Positions 10,554 to 38,523 of a DNA stretch of 64,000 nucleotides are shown piece after piece. This stretch comes from Asanoa ferruginea. GTDB taxonomy: Bacteria; Actinomycetota; Actinomycetes; Mycobacteriales; Micromonosporaceae. The position numbers and the translations under genes were made by a program. Location: positions 4,340,001 to 4,404,000 of the forward strand of contig NZ_QUMQ01000001.1 of the NCBI RefSeq assembly GCF_003387075.1, written 5' to 3'. Below the pieces are notes generated by a model. It ran no database searches, had not been told where the DNA came from, and was given only the letters and a program-made list of their open reading frames with translations. Each line of letters opens with the position of its first letter. Position 1 is the stretch's first letter.

Positions 10554-11146
10554 CCGCCGCCGCGGCGGCCGACCTGTCGCAGGCCCGCGCGGCGTGGCTC
10601 ACCGCGCCCAACGCGATCACCCTGGTCCGAACCGTCGCGGCGATCGCGCTGGCCCTCCCGGCACTGGTGCAGCGGAGCTGGCCGCTGCTGGTCGCCGCCT
10701 ACCTCTGCTACTGGCTGGGCGACATCCTCGACGGCGCGGTCGCCCGTTGGCTGTGCCAGGAGACGCGGGTAGGCGCGGTCTTCGACATCGTCGCCGACCG
10801 GGCGTGCACGTCGCTGTGCGCGGCCGCGCTGGTCACCCTGGAACCCTCGATGGCCCTGCCGATCGGCATCTTCCTGGCCCAGTTCATGGTCCTCGACTGC
10901 GGCCTGAGCCTGACGTTCCTACGCTGGCCCTTGCTGAGCCCGAACTACTTCGCCCAGGTGCACCGCGCGGTCTACCTGTGGAACTGGTCGCCGGTGGCCA
11001 AGGCAGTCAACACGGGCGCGCTCGTCGTGCTGGTCCTTTTGGCACCGTCCCCGGCCTGGCCGGCGCTGTTCGCCGTCGCGGTAGCGGCGGTAAAGGCCAT
11101 CTCCCTGGTCGCGGTCGCCCGCCTCGCGCCGCCGCCATCTCGATGA
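10550..11146 (+). CDS. CDP-alcohol phosphatidyltransferase family protein
   Basis: Integral membrane enzyme of 198 aa that transfers a phosphatidyl group from CDP-diacylglycerol to an alcohol acceptor. The complete family signature D(x2)DG(x2)AR(x8)G(x3)D(x3)D is present, beginning GDILDGAVARWL and ending VFDIVADR, with all catalytic Asp residues in place. Several hydrophobic helices surround it. The acceptor (glycerol-3-phosphate, inositol phosphate or other) cannot be told. It overlaps both neighbours by 4 bp and is the third gene of the operon. Confidence 0.88.
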   Translation: MTAAAAADLSQARAAWLTAPNAITLVRTVAAIALALPALVQRSWPLLVAAYLCYWLGDILDGAVARWLCQETRVGAVFDIVADRACTSLCAAALVTLEPSMALPIGIFLAQFMVLDCGLSLTFLRWPLLSPNYFAQVHRAVYLWNWSPVAKAVNTGALVVLVLLAPSPAWPALFAVAVAAVKAISLVAVARLAPPPSR

Positions 11147-11616
11147 TCACCTACTTGACGGTCGCCCTGGTCGGCTTCGCGTCGGCATTCCAACCGTTCC
11201 TACCGGCGGAGGCATACCTGGTCGGGGTGACAGCCACCACCGGCGCGGTGCCGGTGCTGGTCGGCCTGGCAGCCGCGGCGGGCCAGACGGTCGGCAAGGT
11301 GGTCGTCTTCCTGGCGAGCCGGGGCCTGGTCCGCTGGTCTTTCGTCCGCCGCCTGATCGACCGCCCTCCGTCGCCGAAACCCCCGTCAGCTCTCCGCCGC
11401 CGGATGACCGCCCTGGTCGCACGCCTGGACGAACCACGCTGGTCGGCGGCGATGCTCCTACTGAGCGCGGTGGTGGGCATCCCACCTTTGATCGCAACCA
11501 CGATCTACGCCGCCCGCACCCCAATGCGCCTACCAGTCTTCGCGGCGCTGACGTTTGCGGGCCGCTCAGTCCGCTTCGTCATCCTTGCCCTGGCGCCAGC
11601 CCTGGTCATGACCTGA
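11143..11616 (+). CDS. Small DedA/VTT-like integral membrane protein
   Basis: Protein of 157 aa with about four hydrophobic segments (YLTVALVGFASAF, then GLAAAAGQTVGKVVVFLAS, AAMLLLSAVVGIPPLIATTI and a C-terminal helix). The pattern of a glycine-rich re-entrant segment, a polar loop and a second hydrophobic hairpin is similar to VTT/DedA (SNARE-associated) proteins, which act in lipid scrambling, but the family's Arg/Glu signature is not clear. The ATG at 11143 overlaps the upstream stop by 4 bp. Last gene of the operon behind the palindromic operator at 9998. Confidence 0.7.
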   Translation: MITYLTVALVGFASAFQPFLPAEAYLVGVTATTGAVPVLVGLAAAAGQTVGKVVVFLASRGLVRWSFVRRLIDRPPSPKPPSALRRRMTALVARLDEPRWSAAMLLLSAVVGIPPLIATTIYAARTPMRLPVFAALTFAGRSVRFVILALAPALVMT

Positions 11617-11699
11617 ACAATCGGTCCTGGCCTCGTAACCGCCATTCGGACAGATCGGGGCCCGCCGCCTTGCACGCTCGCTGCCAGGCCGATCTCGCC

Positions 11700-12030
11700 C
11701 GTCGTTATCCGGCGAGTCGCGAAGGTGCGTTCCCGCCGCTCCGGGTGGGTGGGTGTTTGTTGTTTGCGGGCCGTGAGGGTCTGTTTGCTGCCGGTCCGGG
11801 TGGGTGGGGGTTGTTGTGCGGGCCGTGAGGCTGCGTTTTGCTGCCGGTCCGGGTGGGTCTTTGTTGTTGTGCGGGCCGTGAGGCTGCGTTTTGCTGCGGT
11901 CCGGGTGGGTGTTTGTTGTTGTGCGGGCCGTGAGGGTGCGTTCCCCGCCGGCCGGGTGGGTGTTTGTTGTTGTGCGGGCGTGAGGGTGCGTTCCCCGCCG
12001 GTCCGGGTGGGTGCATGTCGTTGTCCGGTG
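11700..12030. repeat. Tandem repeat array, unit about 52 bp, near-identical part
   Basis: About six to seven head-to-tail copies. Each contains GTTGTTGTGCGGGCCGTGAG, then a TGCGTT core, a CCCGCCG or TTGCTGC variant, and GGTCCGGGTGGGT. Consecutive units measured by eye are 52, 52 and 50 bp. Because 52 and 50 are not multiples of three, successive copies are read in different frames by any ORF across them. Confidence 0.85.
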
Positions 12031-13273
12031 GACTCTGAAGGTGCGTTCGTTGCCTGGCCGCGGAATGCCGGTTGTTCTTGGGCGGGCCGTCAAGGTGTGC
12101 TCGCCGCCGGACTGCGGTAAGGCCGCAACGTTGTCTGGCGGACTGCACCGCGCGCCTCCAAGCCGGGAGGAGTGTGTCGTTGTCGGGCGGGCCGCGAAGG
12201 TGTCGCTCGCGGTTGGACCGCGGAGAGCGCGTCGTCGTCGGGCGACCGTGAAGGTGCGCTCGCGGCCACGCCGCGGTGACGCACTCTCCATCGGCCGGGG
12301 ATAGTGCAGTTCCGCGGTGGGCCGCCACAGTGCGATTCTCCGAGGGGCTGGCAAGGTGTATTTCCCAGGGACTGGCACGTGCAGTAGCTCGGGGGCTGGC
12401 CGCCGCCGCGACCAGCCCGACCGTCGCCCGCACTGGGCCGCGCTGCGCACCGTGGCGACCGGCCGCGGCCCTAAGGGGCTGGTAGGTGCGGCAGGGTGCG
12501 GTTCCCCGGTTCGCGGCAGGGTGCAGTCCCGCTCGGTCGCGCTGGCTCGTTTGCCACCCGGCTGCCGTGGCGCACTTGCCGTCGCGTCGCAGTGGTGCAG
12601 TTCCCGCCGGGTCGCGACAGGGGACTTCCTGTGGAGTCGGGGTCGTAGAGGCGTTCTTTCGCGCGGTCGGGATGGTGGCACCTTGGGCGCAAAGGTGCGC
12701 TTCCGGTTTGAGACGATGCGCCTTTCCCACTCGGCCCCGTGATGCATTGTCGCTGATTTGGGAGGCGGCGCCGCTTGGCGGTTTGGCACCCTTCCCAATT
12801 GGCGCATCCGGTGCGCTAAGCGCTGGGAGCCGAGGTGCAATTCGTGCTGGATGCGACGGCGCCTTTTCTGCCCGTGGCGATGGTGTGCGCTCGGCCGGAA
12901 TGCTCGCGGCCGGCCTGATCGGTCCCTCTCCCCGTTGCCCCAGTTGATCGGTAGGGCTCTTTGCACCGGGGTCCTGGCGGGCTGCCGGGCGCACGGCCCG
13001 GTCGGGCGGTGTTGAACCCGCGGAGACCGAAGGGGAAGCCGGGTTAGGGCCGGGCCGCTCCGGATGCATCCCGGCCGTGGTCAGGGTGTGAGGCGCGCAG
13101 CCGTCGCCGCGCAAGCGGCGCAGACGCTCAGCGTGCCGTCGGGTCAGGCCCCAGGCGCGATGGCGCTCATGCTCCCGGCGGAATTCCTCACCCGCGGGCG
13201 AATAACTGCGGGAGGCACTGCGATCGCGCATGGCAGCCAGCTCTGTCGTGTTGAACAATTGGAGCTGCCGCAT
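11705..13273 (-). CDS. ORF with conserved N-terminal module and repeat-derived tail; function unknown
   Basis: Open frame of 522 codons. The first 53 residues (MRQLQLFNTTELAAMRDR..., then [20 protein letters not shown] and WGLTRRHAERLRR) match a second locus at 36946 at 43 of 53 positions, and weak similarity (TAG..PE..P.PASP) continues to about residue 95. That part is Arg/Glu/His-rich and looks like a real small basic protein. The remaining ~420 codons run antisense through the 52-bp repeat field and give a Pro/His/Asn/Arg-rich sequence that changes frame with each repeat, so they are probably not under protein selection, or the real gene is shorter or broken. No known domain was recognised. 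The leader sequence is also conserved (see 13274-13332). Confidence 0.45.
   Translation of the reverse strand: MRQLQLFNTTELAAMRDRSASRSYSPAGEEFRREHERHRAWGLTRRHAERLRRLRGDGCAPHTLTTAGMHPERPGPNPASPSVSAGSTPPDRAVRPAARQDPGAKSPTDQLGQRGEGPIRPAASIPAERTPSPRAEKAPSHPARIAPRLPALSAPDAPIGKGAKPPSGAASQISDNASRGRVGKAHRLKPEAHLCAQGATIPTARKNASTTPTPQEVPCRDPAGTAPLRRDGKCATAAGWQTSQRDRAGLHPAANRGTAPCRTYQPLRAAAGRHGAQRGPVRATVGLVAAAASPRATARASPWEIHLASPSENRTVAAHRGTALSPADGECVTAAWPRAHLHGRPTTTRSPRSNRERHLRGPPDNDTLLPAWRRAVQSARQRCGLTAVRRRAHLDGPPKNNRHSAARQRTHLQSPPDNDMHPPGPAGNAPSRPHNNKHPPGRRGTHPHGPHNNKHPPGPQQNAASRPAQQQRPTRTGSKTQPHGPHNNPHPPGPAANRPSRPANNKHPPTRSGGNAPSRLAG
12030..12990. repeat. Degenerate continuation of the tandem repeat field
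   Basis: The same elements (GTTGTCnGGCGG, GAAGGTGCG(T/C)TCG, CGCGG) recur at 50-60 bp intervals to about 12300 and then, more diverged as GGTGCAGTTCCCGC and CGGGTCGCG variants, to about 12990. The gradient from near-perfect copies at the low-coordinate end to decayed copies toward 13 kb suggests expansion or homogenisation at one end. Confidence 0.6.
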
Positions 13274-13332
13274 ACATCAATTGTCCCCTATTCCAGTCCA
13301 GAAATCCGCCCCGCCCAAGGCTTTCGATTATG
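13274..13332 (-). promoter_or_regulatory. Conserved leader/promoter of the repeat locus, copy 1
   Basis: On the minus strand a CATAAT hexamer (13327-13332) is followed by CGAAAGCCTT, GGATTTCTGG and GACAATTGA before the ATG, 59 bp from hexamer to start. The same elements in the same order and spacing (58 bp) precede the paralogous ORF at 36946. CATAAT fits a -10 box; no clear -35 is seen. Confidence 0.6.
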
Positions 13333-13507
13333 CAAAATCTAGACGCACGATCCCGGAAGTGCGCGGCCGCCGGCGCAGCAACGCATTCGACCGTAGAGGA
13401 GAAATGGACGTTGAGCCATCCCAGTGGGAGAATCTGCCGCCGCGAGGGGCTGCGACCGCGAACAGCGACGCCCAAACCAACCACGCAAAGGGTGGCGCGG
13501 CCGAGCG

Positions 13508-14572
13508 CTAGTCGCCTGCTGCGCGGGGGCGGATTAGGCGGATGCCGTTGACCGGTGCGCGGACCATTGAGATCAGGGCGGCCGGGGCCTCGTCGAGGGT
13601 CAGGTCGTCGGTGACCAGCTCGTCGGGGCGTAGCTTGCCTGCCTCTATCAGCCGCAGCATTTCTGGGAACGCGTGTGCCGGCAGGCCGTGGCTGCCGCGT
13701 AGCTCCAGCTCGTAGGCGATCACCCGGTCCATCGGCAGCGCTGGGCGACCGGTCACCGCCGGCAACAGGCCCACCTGGATGTGCCGGCCGCGGCGGCGCA
13801 GGCATTCGATTGACGTTACGCAGGTGACCGACGAACCCAGGGCGTCGAGCGACAGATGTGCCCCGCCGTCCGTGCGGTCGCGGACCGCCGCCGCCACCTC
13901 GGCCGGGCCGCCGGGGATTGACGACGCGTCCAGCACCTCGGCCGCCCCGGCCAGCGCGGCCAGTTCCAAAGCGCGGGGGGCGATGTCGACCGCGATGACC
14001 CGGGCGCCGGCCGCCGCGGCCACCATTACCGCCGACAGGCCGACGCCGCCGCAGCCGTGCACCGCCACCCACTCGCCCGGCGCTACCCGGCCCTGGTGGA
14101 CAACAGCGCGGAAGGCGGTGCCGAAACGGCAGCCGAGGCTGACCGCCGCCGTGTCGCTGACCGAGTCGGGCAGGCGCACCAGGTTGACGTCGGCGTGTTC
14201 GACCGCCACCAGTTCGGCGAACGAGCCCCAGCGGGTGAAGCCGGGCTGGCTCTGGTTGGAACAGACCTGTTGGTCGCCGGCCAGGCAGCTCGGGCAGTGG
14301 CCGCAGGCGCAGATGAACGGCACCGTGACCCGGTCGCCGGGGCGCCAGCGGGCGACACCTGTGCCGACCGCGGTGACCACGCCGGCGAACTCGTGGCCGG
14401 GCACGTGTGGCACGACGATGTCCGGGTCGTGGCCCCGCCAGCCGTGCCAGTCGCTGCGGCATAGGCCGGTCACCGACACGCTGATCACGGCGCCACCTGG
14501 TGGCGGTGTCGGGTCGGGCAGCTCGCGAACCTCGGGTGGCGACCCGAAAGCCTCGTAGTAGACGGCGCGCAC
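13508..14572 (-). CDS. Zinc-dependent alcohol dehydrogenase family protein
   Basis: Medium-chain dehydrogenase/reductase, 354 aa, NAD(P)-dependent. Catalytic zinc ligands are visible in GLCRSDWHGW and GHEFAGVV, and the structural-zinc cysteines in CACGHCPSCLAGDQQVC. The Rossmann motif is VAVHGCGGVGLSAV. The substrate is not evident; it looks like the threonine/sorbitol/alcohol dehydrogenase branch. The GTG start gives a normal N-terminus (MRAVYYEAFG). It ends a minus-strand run that begins at 17279 (hypothetical, MFS, DinB-like, this gene). Confidence 0.9.
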   Translation of the reverse strand: MRAVYYEAFGSPPEVRELPDPTPPPGGAVISVSVTGLCRSDWHGWRGHDPDIVVPHVPGHEFAGVVTAVGTGVARWRPGDRVTVPFICACGHCPSCLAGDQQVCSNQSQPGFTRWGSFAELVAVEHADVNLVRLPDSVSDTAAVSLGCRFGTAFRAVVHQGRVAPGEWVAVHGCGGVGLSAVMVAAAAGARVIAVDIAPRALELAALAGAAEVLDASSIPGGPAEVAAAVRDRTDGGAHLSLDALGSSVTCVTSIECLRRRGRHIQVGLLPAVTGRPALPMDRVIAYELELRGSHGLPAHAFPEMLRLIEAGKLRPDELVTDDLTLDEAPAALISMVRAPVNGIRLIRPRAAGD

Positions 14573-34208: not shown

Positions 34209-36797
34209 CTAGGAAGCCGGACCCTCCGGGGAATGGGGAGAAATCCCTAACTTGCGCGCGCGGGCCGCCGCCTGCCCGCGGCTGGTCACGCCGAGCCGGG
34301 CGAGCACGGCGGAGACGTGGTGATCGACGGTCTTGGGCGCGAGCCGCAGCCGGTCGGCGATGTCGGCGTTGGAGAGGCCGTCGACGAGCAGGCCGAGCAC
34401 CTCGGCCTGCCGCGGGGTGAGCCCGGCCGGGTGGGAGACGGTCGTGCGGCGCGGACCGCGCGGCACCCCACGCAGGCCGCGCCTTCGGAGGTCGCCGCGC
34501 AGCCACTGTGCCGCGTGGGTGGCGCCGAGCGCGTCCAGGCCGCGGACAGCCTCGGTGACGGCGTCGAGGTCGCCGAGGGCCAGCGCTTCGAGGCGGAGGA
34601 AGTGGCCGCCGCGCTGGTGCCAGTCGTTGGCTGCCTGGCGCCAGTCGCCGTCGACCATCCAGCGGTAGGGAGCGAGGGCGCCTTCCGGCGCCGAGGTGCG
34701 GCCATCGGCCTGCCAGAGCCGCAAGGCCAACTCGCCGCTGTGCGGCGCGGCGCGCTGACCGGCCGCCCGGGCCAGTGCCGGGCGCACTTCGGCGGCCGCT
34801 CGCTCCGGGTCGCCGTACCAGCGGAAATGCTCCGCCCGGGCGCTCTTGGTGGGCCCCACCCACTGCATTTCGCGGGCCGGACCCGCGTGCCGGTCGGCCT
34901 CGTCCAGATAGGACAGCGCGAGGCTTTGGTCGCCGCGGGCGCCGTGGATGCGACCGAGTGCGACCAGCGCGGGCACCCGGCCGATGCCGCCCTGCGCGGG
35001 CAGCCGCAGCGACTCGTCGGCGTCGGTGATGGCACCGGCCCAGTCGCCCGCTTGCAGCTTGACGCCGGCCCGGGTTCCGAGCAGACACTGGAGATAGCCG
35101 TCGAGATCCTGCTCCCGGGCGTAGCCCACCGCCCGGTCGAGGGCCGGCGCGGCCGCCGTGAACCGGGCCTGCTCGGCCAGCCCACCGGCGATGTTGAGCA
35201 ACGCCCGGGTCGCATGGTCGACGTGGCCGGCAGCGGCCGCAGCCGCGTACGCCGCCTCCAGCGTGTCCTGGCCGCCGGGCAGCTCGAGCTGCATCTGCGA
35301 GGAGCCGACGTTGATGGCGGCGTGGATGGCGGTCTCGCCGTCACCGAACTCCTCGGCGAGGGCGCGGGCCTTCTCGCCCAGCTCGATCGCCTCGGCGAAC
35401 TCGTAGTCGAGCATCAGGAGTTGGGAGAGGTTGCTGTAGGCCATCGCCAGTTCCCGGCCTGGCGGCAGCGCCGCCAACACCGTGACGGCCCGGTCGGCCG
35501 CGCTGCGGGATTCCGCCGAGTCGCCGGCCCACCAGGCGATCCGCGACAGCCAGCGCCAGCTCGCGCCGAGCGCTTCCAGCTCACCGAGCCGCTCCCGGAT
35601 GGCGATGGCGGCCCGCCGCGGCACCAGCCCGTCGGCGGCGGTCCCGGCCAGGTAGGCCGCAGCCGAGTAGCGCTCCAGCAGGTCGGCCTGCTCCGCCAGC
35701 GGCAACCGGTCAGCATGGGCCGCGGCGGCCCGGTAGTGGTCGGCCGCCTCGCGCCGGGCACCCTGCCGGGCGGCAGCCGCGGCGGCGATCCGACCCCAAC
35801 GCAGCACCGAGTCGGCGTCGCCCGCACCCCGCGCGTGGTGCACCAGCCGGCCAGGGTCGACGCCGCCGGTGCCGATCAGCGCGTCGAGTGCGGTCGCGTG
35901 CAGGGCGGTCCGTTGCCTTGGCGTGAGGGAGTCTTCGACGGCTGTGCGGAGCAGTTCGTGTCGGTAGGCGACGCCGTCGTCGGTCGGGACCAGGACGCCG
36001 CCGGCTATGCAGGCTTCGATCTGGTCGTCGCGGCCCGCCAGGAGCGCCTGGTCGCAGCGGCCCGGCGCGACGGCGACGAGCCGGGCCAGTTCGCGGGCCG
36101 CCGCCGGAAGTGCGCGGATCCGGTCCAGGATCAGGCCGCGCACGCTCTCCGGCGCGCGGTCGCCGGCCGCGCCGAGCAACTCCGTCAGCAGCAGTGGGTT
36201 GCCGCCGGTCAGAGCGAGCACGGTGGCCGCGTCGCGCCCGGTCCGCGCGGCCTCGGCGGCGACGCGCTCGGGCGACAGCGGTGCGAGCGGGATCCGGGTG
36301 CCGCGCAGCGCGGCGAGCGCCCGGTGCAGGGGATGGCCGGCGCCCACCTCGTCGTCGCGGTAGGTGACCACCAGCAGGGCGTGTTGCCGGCCGATCCGGC
36401 GGCCGAGCAGCACCAGCAGGTCGAGGGTGGCCTCGTCGGCCCAGTGGATGTCTTCGACGACCAGCACCGGCCGGGCCGCCGGGTGGTCGAGCTGGTCCAG
36501 CAGCGCCGCGAGGATCTCCTCGGGCGCGGCGCCGGCCGCGAGCCGCTCGGCGAGTGCGCCGCTGCTGTGCCGGGCGATGTCGTGCACGGGGCCGAGCGCG
36601 CGCGGGGTGACCAGCGGGTCGCACCATCCCCAGTGGAACCGCGCACGCCGGTCGGCGCGGCGGGCGAACTCGCCCATCAGCACGGACTTGCCGACGCCGG
36701 CCTCGCCCGCGACGAGCGCCACCCGGCCGCCGGTCGCGCAGGATCGCAGCAGCTCGTCGAGCACCCTCAGCGGCGCCGCCCGCTCCCACAGCTCCAC
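34209..36797 (-). CDS. LAL-type LuxR family transcriptional regulator (AAA ATPase)
   Basis: 862-aa large ATP-binding regulator of the LuxR family. N-terminal AAA/STAND ATPase: Walker A VALVAGEAGVGKSVLMG, Walker B VLVVEDIHWAD; a long helical repeat (TPR-like) middle; C-terminal LuxR HTH from about residue 790 (LTPRQAEVLGLLVDGLSNAD and RLRLAPKTVDHHVSAVLARL). Such proteins activate target operons on binding an inducer and ATP. GTG start. The neighbouring DsrE gene downstream may be a target. Most of the antisense frames in this region are shadows. Confidence 0.92.
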   Translation of the reverse strand: MELWERAAPLRVLDELLRSCATGGRVALVAGEAGVGKSVLMGEFARRADRRARFHWGWCDPLVTPRALGPVHDIARHSSGALAERLAAGAAPEEILAALLDQLDHPAARPVLVVEDIHWADEATLDLLVLLGRRIGRQHALLVVTYRDDEVGAGHPLHRALAALRGTRIPLAPLSPERVAAEAARTGRDAATVLALTGGNPLLLTELLGAAGDRAPESVRGLILDRIRALPAAARELARLVAVAPGRCDQALLAGRDDQIEACIAGGVLVPTDDGVAYRHELLRTAVEDSLTPRQRTALHATALDALIGTGGVDPGRLVHHARGAGDADSVLRWGRIAAAAAARQGARREAADHYRAAAAHADRLPLAEQADLLERYSAAAYLAGTAADGLVPRRAAIAIRERLGELEALGASWRWLSRIAWWAGDSAESRSAADRAVTVLAALPPGRELAMAYSNLSQLLMLDYEFAEAIELGEKARALAEEFGDGETAIHAAINVGSSQMQLELPGGQDTLEAAYAAAAAAGHVDHATRALLNIAGGLAEQARFTAAAPALDRAVGYAREQDLDGYLQCLLGTRAGVKLQAGDWAGAITDADESLRLPAQGGIGRVPALVALGRIHGARGDQSLALSYLDEADRHAGPAREMQWVGPTKSARAEHFRWYGDPERAAAEVRPALARAAGQRAAPHSGELALRLWQADGRTSAPEGALAPYRWMVDGDWRQAANDWHQRGGHFLRLEALALGDLDAVTEAVRGLDALGATHAAQWLRGDLRRRGLRGVPRGPRRTTVSHPAGLTPRQAEVLGLLVDGLSNADIADRLRLAPKTVDHHVSAVLARLGVTSRGQAAARARKLGISPHSPEGPAS

Positions 36798-36887
36798 CAG
36801 CCGATGGTCTCACCGCGTGACGGGCGCACACACCTCAAATAGGCCCTGCGCACCGGGACACGGTCCGTCGTGTCCCAGGCCATTGGC

Positions 36888-36945
36888 CATAATCGAAAGC
36901 CTTTTCGGGGCAGATTTCTGGTCAGAGATGGGAGACAATTGACGC
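36888..36945 (+). promoter_or_regulatory. Conserved leader/promoter of the repeat locus, copy 2
   Basis: CATAAT (36888-36893), then CGAAAGCCTTTTCGGGGC, GATTTCTGG, GGGAGACAATTGA and the ATG at 36946. Order and spacing match the leader at 13274-13332 on the other strand, and GGGAG can serve as ribosome site. Confidence 0.6.
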
Positions 36946-38523
36946 ATGCGGCAGCTCCAGTTCTTTACCACGAAAGAGCTAGCCGTCATGCGCGACCGCA
37001 CCGCTGCCCGCAGCTATTCGCCCGCGGGTGAGCAGTTCCGTCGCGAGCATCAGCGCCATCGCGCCTGGGGGCTGACCCAACGCCATTCCGAGCGTCTTCG
37101 CCGCACGCGTGGCGCTGACCGCGATCCCCGCATTCCAACTGCCGGCGGAAACCGTCCAGAACAACGAGCGCCCATTCCGCCTGCCTCGCCGACAACGTCT
37201 TCGGGCCAACCAGTCGCCGCACGTCAGGACCACGCCCGTGGCACGGCGCCGACAAGCGGAACGTTACAACCAGCCGCGCGGCCACCGACAACTTCGACGG
37301 GAAATGCGCCCTCGCGGCCAGTGGGAAATACACCGAAGGCCAAAGCGACGGACGTCGCCGACCAACCCGACACACCGGCGACAAGAACATCACAGCTAGC
37401 GGCGTGGGCACCGAGGAAAGATGCACTCTCGCGCCAGCGAGAAATGCGCCGACGCTTCAACCAGATATGCGCTATCGCGGCAAAAGCGCGCCTTCGCGGT
37501 CCGCCGGACAACGACTGCAAAGACAGTTTCGACGAGGACACGCCGCCCTGGCCGACGCGCGGCCGCGTCGGGCGGGTGACGCCGGCTCGGCGCACGATGA
37601 CCGATGGTCGCGGTCTACTCGACGAGTTGGAGCAGGCCGTGGGTGAACCAGAGGCGGTGGCCGGCGGTCTCGACCAGCCAGCGGCTGGCGACGTCGGGGT
37701 TGACCTGGTGGGCGTCGGGCCAGCGGGCCAGGGTGTCGGCGACCACGCAGGACCATGGTGTGAGGTCGGGTGGCTCCGGCAGCACCGGCGCGGGCGTGTC
37801 CGGCGTGCGGACCAAGGTTCCGTCGATCACCACGTTGGCCGCGCCGATGATGGCCTGCCAGCGCAGGTCCGGCCAGAGTGGCAGGCGCCAGTGGCAGACG
37901 GTCGCGGTGACGTCGCCGAGGCGCAGTGGGTGCAGGTGGTCTTCCGGGCCGAGCACCGCGTGCAGGAGGTCGAGGCCCTGCGGTGCGCGGCGCGAGCGCA
38001 GCATGGTCTGCCAGCGGTTGAACGCGGCCAGGTAGTCGGCCTTGCGGGCGCCCAGCCGGGTGTAGGCCTCGACCACCAGATCCGGCTGGTAGTCGGCCAT
38101 CCGGCGGAGCAGCATCAGGGTGAACTCCCGGCGCGCGAAACCGTGCACCCCGCCGACGTTACCGCCGCTCGGCACGGCCGGCTCGCACGCGGCGACGGCC
38201 CGTCGTGCGAGGGCCGCACCAGGGCGATGTCACCGAACCAGCGTGGCCGGGTCGGGCGGCGCGGCCAACCGGCGCACGACGGCGTGCAGCGCGTAGAGGG
38301 CGTAGCCGACCAGGCAGGCCGCCAGGATCGGGTGGACCAGCACCGCCAGGAGCGCGGCCAGCGCGACCACGCCGGCGGCCGCTGCGACGGTCGCCGGGCG
38401 GGCCGCTGCCGCCACCCACACCGCCGACCGCCACCCCCCGTCGGGTCGGGCGCCGAGCGCGACCACGGTCAGCGCGGCGTAGCCGGCCGCCGCCGTCGCG
38501 ATCAGCACCGTCGCCGCGAGTAG
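36946..38523 (+). CDS. Second copy of the MRQLQ-module ORF; only the first ~90 codons are supported
   Basis: The frame opens with [38 protein letters not shown] and [11 protein letters not shown], 43 of 53 positions identical with the locus at 13273, including its leader. Beyond about residue 95 the sequence changes into the same kind of Pro/Arg/Asn-rich, repeat-related text, e.g. [10 protein letters not shown] at ~37500 against LRGPPDND in the other locus. The open frame continues to 38523, but from 37615 it lies antisense to better-supported minus-strand genes, so the real product almost certainly ends earlier or the gene is degenerate. Function unknown; basic, helix-prone N-terminus. Confidence 0.4.
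37230..37540. repeat. Degenerate repeat elements shared with the 11.7-13 kb field
   Basis: In + orientation, elements like GAAATGCGCCCTCGCGGCC (about 37299), a GATGCACTCTCGCGCC variant (about 37420) and GCGCCTTCGCGGTCCGCC followed by GGACAACGAC (about 37488-37515) match the minus-strand sense of the repeat field at 12 kb. There are few copies and they are strongly diverged. Confidence 0.5.
37615..38175 (-). CDS. Hypothetical protein, conserved-looking
   Basis: 186-aa soluble protein without a recognised domain. The central part ([60 protein letters not shown]) has strong third-position GC bias in this frame and a compact mixed composition, unlike the opposite frame. GTG start at 38175; a GTG or ATG further in cannot be excluded because the first 15 residues look unconserved. 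It follows the DUF624 gene after 54 bp on the same strand, at the end of the sugar ABC transporter operon. Confidence 0.6.

Follow-up and report, generated by a model that had tools for sequence, protein, structure and literature searches.

A conserved basic module with a hypervariable tail: a candidate orphan gene family in Asanoa ferruginea and other Micromonosporaceae

A dispersed family with a conserved front end

The stretch of DNA analyzed here, referred to as the window, covers 64,000 nucleotides of the Asanoa ferruginea genome (NCBI RefSeq assembly GCF_003387075.1, contig NZ_QUMQ01000001.1, forward-strand positions 4,340,001 to 4,404,000), and it contains two related genes, each of which begins with a conserved, basic module of 55 amino acids (aa) and continues into a long variable tail. 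Copy 1 (WA) starts at an ATG at position 13273 on the minus strand and has an open reading frame (ORF) of 522 aa that runs to position 11705, and copy 2 (WB) starts at 36946 on the plus strand with an ORF of 525 aa. We tentatively interpret these genes as members of a dispersed, functional, lineage-restricted and lineage-expanded family of orphan protein-coding genes, a reading that we put forward as a serious candidate and that is weighed below against several alternatives.

The pair was first pointed out in an earlier note, written by a model from the letters of the window alone. Our recount agrees with the note that 43 of the first 53 residues of the two modules, 13273(-) and 36946(+), are identical. 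The stretches directly upstream, which the note called leaders, also align with the same order and spacing of their parts, and the 57-bp copy 1 leader finds its best ungapped match elsewhere in the window at the leader of copy 2 (36/57 positions; the runner-up reaches 29/57). Because nine further copies were found elsewhere in the genome, the module family is far beyond chance. In total, 11 copies are detected at E ≤0.01 in the 9,071,909 bases of the single contig, with open frames of 232-526 codons and with no stop or frame break within any of the 11 matches. When the 11 copies are aligned and identity is scored in bins of 10 positions, it is 0.25-0.38 upstream of -60, 0.54-0.83 from -60 to -1, 0.72-0.98 from 0 to +159 and 0.31-0.45 from +180. 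Conservation begins near -75 and fades past about +170, which, taken with a pooled ratio of nonsynonymous to synonymous divergence (dN/dS) of 0.11 for the module, upholds the view that selection acts on the upstream region and the N-terminus. The features of the two copies in the window are as follows.

13323..13335, minus strand: putative upstream promoter box TTGCATAATCGAA of copy 1; eight genome-wide matches with ≤1 mismatch, all 49-62 bp before a module start
13301..13312, minus strand: conserved GGGGCRGATTTC block of copy 1 at the expected -35 position, from an alignment of 11 promoters
13280..13285, minus strand: -10-like GACAAT of copy 1, 6 nt before the ATG; a leaderless mRNA is predicted
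13109..13273, minus strand: conserved basic 55-aa module of copy 1; pooled dN/dS 0.11 over 11 copies, 2.4-2.5 in shifted frames
11705..13108, minus strand: hypervariable tail of copy 1; frame 0 open to the stop at 11705, 1 and 4 stops in the other frames
11747..12028, minus strand: tandem array in the copy 1 tail; unit of 51-52 bp, 5.5 units, 88% match
36884..36897, plus strand: variant upstream box TGGCCATAATCGAA of copy 2, aligned with the other copies and not among the TTGCATAATCGAA box matches
36934..36939, plus strand: -10-like GACAAT of copy 2, 6 nt before the ATG
36946..37110, plus strand: conserved 55-aa module of copy 2
37111..37606, plus strand: copy 2 tail, ending where the inserted DNA ends; its open frame continues to 38523, across the antisense strand of the next gene
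36818..37606, plus strand: inserted DNA carrying copy 2, 789 bp, missing from the corresponding site of five sister Asanoa genomes

The module as a selected protein

Among the 11 A. ferruginea modules the proportions of synonymous and nonsynonymous differences (pS and pN) are 0.49 and 0.085, giving the pooled dN/dS of 0.11, compared with 2.4 and 2.5 in the two shifted frames. Low values recur on a smaller scale: 0.06-0.28 in the eight closest A. ferruginea pairs, 0.14 over seven copies of genome G088 and 0.23 over four young copies of genome G057. In the five G057 copies, variable module sites fall 4, 5 and 14 times on the first, second and third codon positions, respectively (p 0.006). By these patterns the module is, as far as sequence comparison can tell, under purifying selection as a protein. 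The suggestion of the earlier note that the unit might be degenerate and selfish fits poorly with these ratios and with 11 unbroken matches.

The module has an isoelectric point of 11.7 and a net charge of +7, in keeping with the small basic protein proposed earlier. AlphaFold2 models it with helices only (residues 3-6, 9-23 and 26-58), with a mean predicted local distance difference test score of 77 and a predicted template modeling score of 0.34, and the encoded protein is probably a basic helical anchor followed by a disordered tail. The two window proteins had no match in Pfam, PADLOC, PHROGs or NCBIfam, and thus no resemblance to known anti-phage defense, phage or named families was found in those searches, of which the PADLOC one covered these two proteins alone. 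Searching Pfam, PHROGs and NCBIfam with 35 family modules returned weak hits only, the best being DDX23-like (5/35 members, E 0.0005). The statement that this is not a recognized system holds for every family model searched.

Some subgroups differ in length. By eye, conservation seems to extend about 25 residues beyond the module in L055-L059 (G088) and L099-L105 (G084, G067), with YGHVPDDAEVLAAW... and CGYSYVEAVAAVDGV..., and the folded part may be longer in these copies; a Pfam scan of five proteins from these subgroups returned UreF for one only, at E 0.04. Two relatives, L215 (G067) and L216 (G084), 81% identical over the match, have no repeat tail and end at 95 and 101 aa with a short conserved C-terminal part, MLRW...GGVRWLFP...VARRIVA.KGG.

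The tail

Across the 11 A. ferruginea tails we counted 0, 29 and 28 stops in frames 0, +1 and +2, respectively. The ends of these tails were set at mapped edges, at homology limits or by hand, and those of WA and L047 are near the frame-0 stop. A test free of this bias takes the same fixed stretch, +165..+405, in each of 59 other copies, and the corresponding counts are 8, 60 and 84 (p 4e-17). By this measure the tail is a frame-selected coding sequence, and the proposal that the 3' region acts as RNA was rejected after these frame tests and a search of positions 11000-14000 against Rfam, which gave no match at E 1.

That the 3' part expands, as the earlier note supposed, is seen in the tandem arrays of the tails. 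Using Tandem Repeats Finder (TRF) with a score of at least 100, we found arrays in 38/70 tail stretches (+165..+900), with a period divisible by three in 33/38, compared with 16/68 upstream control stretches (6/16 divisible by three) and 8/70 downstream ones (3/8). At a score of 60 there are 42 arrays in tails, 36 of them in multiples of three, and 18 (7) in the upstream control. Repeat units vary among copies, examples being APAQIPTSAPALAAVP, EPATP, PSGTA and SP. The claim that repeats of one family follow each copy stands in part. A 28-bp core of the 51/52-bp array of copy 1 recurs, at ≥20/28 positions, in the tails of 5 of the 11 A. ferruginea copies (WA, WB, L040, L044 and L046), with one match in copy 2; a further match near L043 lies outside its tail. 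The other A. ferruginea tails have other segments in common. A. ferruginea tails are related piecewise at about 65-80%, tails from different genera have no common sequence by eye, and tail dN/dS in two G057 pairs is 0.72 and 0.81. Read together, these comparisons point to a tail whose sequence evolves almost neutrally and which minisatellites rebuild.

In frame 0 the A. ferruginea tails comprise 14% hydrophobic residues, 14% proline, 17% alanine and 12% arginine, a composition from which we infer that the tail would be disordered. The disordered character may come from base composition, since the other frames are nearly as poor in hydrophobic residues. Many tails are depleted in T, and in A. 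ferruginea T is at 0.10-0.12 at all three codon positions. Because all positions are low, T depletion is inseparable from tail composition, and it was set aside as a property of an RNA.

These features bear directly on an alternative in which the module alone is the working protein part and the tail is read-through without a function that stays open owing to T-poor DNA. The nearly neutral dN/dS of the G057 tails, the low T at every codon position, the low hydrophobicity of every frame, a 52-bp unit in L040 that cycles through all frames and the existence of near module-only relatives (L068, 60 aa; L106, 95 aa) all agree with it. However, the same T-poor DNA acquires stops readily off frame, as the counts above indicate, but hardly any in frame 0, and array periods are biased toward multiples of three. 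We regard pure read-through as rather doubtful.

Probable promoter and upstream box

A hexamer of the form [GC]ANAAT precedes the start codon by 6 nt in 34 of the 71 copies, by 7 nt in 8, by 9 nt in 4 and by 5 nt in 1, and most A. ferruginea copies have a -10-like GAYAAT at 6 nt. As the -10-like element lies only 6 nt from the start codon, almost no leader is left to fold, and a transcribed, structured leader was rejected. The 59-bp stretch that the earlier note took for a leader is most likely promoter DNA. In the excerpted account of Actinoplanes sp. SE50/110, promoters have a -10 motif TAnnnT and a -35 motif nTGACn, and 1179 transcription start sites belong to leaderless transcripts (PMC7682106), which makes leaderless mRNA the natural reading here; the module-gene mRNAs would then start at or next to the start codon. 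Like leaderless actinobacterial promoters, 42/71 copies have the -10-like element 6-7 nt before the start codon and, by eye, G029 copies have TGACA- or TTACA-like -35 sequences about 18 nt upstream of it. Unlike them, the module-gene hexamer mostly begins with G and an extra box lies directly upstream.

With up to one mismatch permitted, that box, TTGCATAATCGAA, has eight matches in the whole A. ferruginea genome, and 8/8 lie before module copies, with none for the reversed control. The box is represented as TTGGCATGATCGA/TTGCATAATCGAA, and a related box, TGGCATGATCNA, has seven matches in G029, six of which are at its six module genes. One shared activator may act on the copies.

Distribution among relatives

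A first search of Micromonosporaceae gave matches at E 0.01 in 15/101 genomes, two of them weak (G015 and G023, E 0.004 and 0.01) and not counted as members, leaving 13/101. With a longer query, 73/300 genomes (A. ferruginea included) matched at 1e-4, with 1 to 17 copies each; 17 was the number of candidates scored per genome, and hence the upper figure is to be read as at least 17. This search and copy count had been suggested in the earlier note, for which an absence of outside homologs, or of purifying selection on them, would have counted against its proposal; the 73 genomes and the module dN/dS point the other way, toward a real gene family. Named hosts belong to Asanoa, Actinoplanes, Amorphoplanes, Paractinoplanes, Catenuloplanes, Pseudosporangium and two Micromonospora species (43 loci, one peptide pattern). 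Within Asanoa, 5/6 genomes have the module (11, 2, 2, 2 and 12 copies), and no copy was found in the sixth, G018.

In samples of the class (394 genomes) and the phylum (396), the A. ferruginea genome was the sole match (1/394 and 1/396). The genomes listed in these samples include two and one other Micromonosporaceae, respectively, and distant relatives could be missed, as only 16 (class) and 15 (phylum) candidates at most were scored per genome. The module had no match in 50,697 phage records, 72,556 plasmid records or viral contigs, and an origin from phage, plasmid or virus was rejected on that ground. Literature searches on the module sequence and on repeats, paralogs and expansions in Micromonosporaceae, Actinoplanes and Asanoa returned nothing on the module family in the partial listings and opening lines of abstracts that they covered. 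In several draft genomes (L145, L147, L153, L164, L166 and L175) a contig end lies about 280-720 bp upstream of the module.

Insertion sites and copy history

In order to compare sites, a chimeric query of 22 flanking segments was used to locate the flanks of A. ferruginea copies in five other Asanoa genomes, and the DNA was aligned. WA, L041 and L046 were left out, as their flank pairs did not occur together among the matches listed in the relatives. For the remaining eight sites, 29 site-by-genome comparisons among the matches listed could be made, and the module was absent in 29/29 (tblastn of the fetched loci). Between the flanks, the relatives have ≤30 bp in 20 comparisons and 71-1703 bp of other sequence in 9. 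At the site of copy 2, the five sister genomes have 21, 26, 71, 181 and 1666 bp of other sequence. At the L044 site the flanking genes abut (0 bp) in L180, compared with 1211 bp between the same genes in A. ferruginea. Taking one comparison for each of the eight sites, homology ends between -97 and -395 and returns between +564 and +1453. Flanks of 29 copies from five Asanoa genomes had no cross-species similarity at 1e-20, and four flank segments of G088 copies that were found in the A. ferruginea genome lie ≥20 kb from any module copy.

Copies prefer gaps between convergent genes. With neighbors called by a simple gene finder, such gaps hold 30 of the 61 copies for which both neighbors were called, versus 13/69 other gaps, and in A. 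ferruginea 7/11 copies are so placed. A RiPP precursor, with its conserved leader and variable core, would be expected to have maturation enzymes next to it; the genes beside the A. ferruginea copies vary from one site to another. Copy 2 adjoins a gene (34209-36797, minus strand) for an 862-aa regulator that combines an ATPase part of the AAA_16 type with a LuxR-type (GerE) DNA-binding end.

A FastTree tree was built from 70 modules of 14 genomes, with three broken copies omitted and branch support not assessed. In it the nearest neighbor comes from the same genome for 56/69 copies in genomes with at least two; 10/11 A. ferruginea copies cluster and L045 stands apart. The eight closest A. ferruginea pairs have a synonymous divergence (dS) of 0.37-0.46 (median 0.70 over the A. 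ferruginea copies), and orthologs of neighboring genes between Asanoa species have a dS of 0.35-0.42 in seven comparisons and 0.71 in the eighth. At face value most duplications would date back at least as far as the species themselves, although the species have no site in common. Faster synonymous change in module genes could account for this, as could loss followed by re-insertion or an influx from a lineage outside the sample. Five young copies in G057 (L082-L086) are alike from about -350 to +640..+910; the similarity of L085 and L086 to the others ends at about +716 and +640, respectively, beyond which, by eye, the DNA resembles insertion sequences.

Other inserts of 0.6-1.7 kb that do not contain the module are found in the sister Asanoa genomes at sites that hold the module in A. 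ferruginea, as follows.

L203:801-2468: module-free insert
L204:921-1564: module-free insert
L205:891-2595: module-free insert
L208:906-1534: module-free insert
L200:894-1934: module-free insert

Given these inserts in the sister species, the same intergenic sites seem to be open to many kinds of DNA.

Species-specific sites raise the alternative of a non-autonomous mobile element. In that case the module would act in cis or as a signal to attract transposition or recombination machinery, the upstream block and the tail would travel as passengers, and insertion would be directed at convergent gene ends. The clean empty sites, the convergent-gap preference, the separate radiation in each genome that is seen in the tree and the self-contained unit with its own promoter all speak for it, and the units resemble miniature inverted-repeat transposable elements (MITEs) in being short, dispersed, intergenic and absent from sister species at the compared sites. 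Unlike MITEs, they show no terminal inverted repeats or consistent target duplications and carry a selected open frame and promoter. At the eight mapped insertions the longest words shared by the two edges measure 4-5 bp in direct and 4-7 bp in inverted orientation, and no sequence recurs among the insertions (a count made without a chance control), and reading these edges as transposon ends was rejected, as nothing was consistent. L043 alone has CTAGG on either edge, and the word appears once in the L187 empty site; this may reflect a target duplication or just the stop codons of the two flanking genes. Library scans recognized no transposase in the two window copies, and phage and plasmid records and viral contigs contain no match. 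Resident MITE copies decay, whereas module selection persists after copying (dN/dS 0.11, 0.14 and 0.23 in three sets) and no A. ferruginea copy is broken, which is not what is expected of elements that are dead on arrival. The dispersal resembles that of mobile elements in outcome and not in known marks, and a mobile element of this sort we consider unlikely.

Comparison with known multigene families

The architecture recalls the PE/PPE families (PE_PGRS, PPE-MPTR) of mycobacteria, which have a conserved N-terminus, a hypervariable repetitive C-terminus and many paralogs, a description that the module family shares. In the excerpt of one published account, the members of PE/PPE multigene families are numerous paralogs whose N-terminal domain is highly conserved and whose remainder is repetitive and GC-rich (PMC4770551), and in that of another they are polymorphic (PMC3319526). 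The corresponding alternative is a secreted or surface family in which the module is an N-terminal targeting part ahead of a variable repeat tail. Resemblance to the first account in architecture, copy number and GC-rich repetition favors this.

PE/PPE N-terminal domains are larger than 55 aa, and their secretion signal is Y-x3-[DE]. Neither the two window proteins nor 35 family modules match PE or PPE in Pfam, an aspartate or glutamate stands four residues past the conserved tyrosine in 0/35 rows by eye, and no hydrophobic signal peptide is seen by eye. In further contrast to PE/PPE genes, each module copy has its own box and leaderless-type promoter, and sites are not common to species. A secreted or surface family is, in our view, improbable. 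A small basic protein with a 3' region acting as RNA, or a degenerate selfish unit, is more improbable still: repeats do expand and diverge and some copies elsewhere are broken, but the tail is selected in frame, tails across genera share no sequence by eye, the A. ferruginea modules are under pooled purifying selection, and nothing at positions 11000-14000 resembles a structured non-coding RNA in Rfam.

Weighing the gene-family reading

For the reading of a functional, lineage-expanded protein-coding family we propose the following scheme. Each copy would be a stand-alone gene with its own promoter, made up of the upstream box, the -35 region and, in most A. ferruginea copies, a GAYAAT -10 element. 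The 55-residue N-terminus, strongly basic and helical, would be conserved as protein, and the long tail, rich in proline, alanine, arginine and serine, would have to meet the sole requirement of staying open, with tandem arrays, mostly in multiples of three, rebuilding it quickly. Copies would multiply within each species, preferring convergent gaps. At the level of a guess, the modules might all bind the same partner, with nucleic acid or a ribonucleoprotein as the likeliest choice, and the tail might serve as a sequence-insensitive disordered bristle or condensate-forming scaffold, with the copies expressed together as a regulon. Persistent selection after copying, the family box and a tail that is open and free in sequence suggest a useful protein with a specific front end and a bulk-acting tail; that its function is that of a nucleic-acid-bound disordered scaffold is likewise a guess.

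Several observations weigh against this reading. No partner gene was found, no family model for the module was convincing (Pfam, NCBIfam, PHROGs; PADLOC for the window copies), and in the PDB no chain matched by sequence and none by fold search. At the promoter, 24/71 copies lack a [GC]ANAAT at 25 bp or less from the start, and 3/11 A. ferruginea copies (WB, L045 and L047) have box variants only. The box is private to the module family in A. ferruginea and almost private in G029, but this does not hold for all genomes, as TGGCATGATCNA matches are at module copies in 5/7 cases in G057, 1/4 in G052 and 1/3 in G072. The remaining eight matches in the four genomes have no module nearby, and the reversed control gives 4 matches versus 21.

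The tail contributes points of its own. The downstream control also leans to multiples of three at a TRF score of 60 (8/13), at a score of 40 about half of the control stretches have an array (32/68 and 32/70), the L040 unit passes through all three frames, and the hydrophobic fraction of the A. ferruginea tails is 0.141 in frame 0, compared with 0.161 and 0.143 in the others. In 6/8 A. ferruginea copies the inserted DNA ends before the frame-0 stop is reached, which is odd for an ordinary gene. Copies that have diverged as much as the species, or beyond them, fit poorly with duplication after speciation, and by eye some copies in relatives are irregular, with frame breaks in L061, L086 and L107 and no usual start in L066.

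A bolder version of the gene-family reading takes the copies as a private regulon: a self-spreading family that is nevertheless useful to its host and consists of species-wise radiations of anchored, hypervariable disordered proteins under an activator box, with whole genes copied into convergent ends without inverted repeats or consistent target duplications. This may be so, although we think it on balance unlikely.

A family that is constrained at its promoter and N-terminus, free at its C-terminus and at new sites in every species compared would be rare in bacteria. It offers a natural series in which disordered-type tails are rebuilt by minisatellites under a frame constraint, and it raises the questions of how small genes disperse with no obvious transposase and what purpose a promoter box confined to one family serves. 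The hosts include genera of industrial and developmental interest, namely Actinoplanes, Catenuloplanes and Asanoa. In streptomycetes TTA codons are often a mark of developmental genes; a TTA leucine codon occurs in 11/73 modules (11/336 leucine codons).

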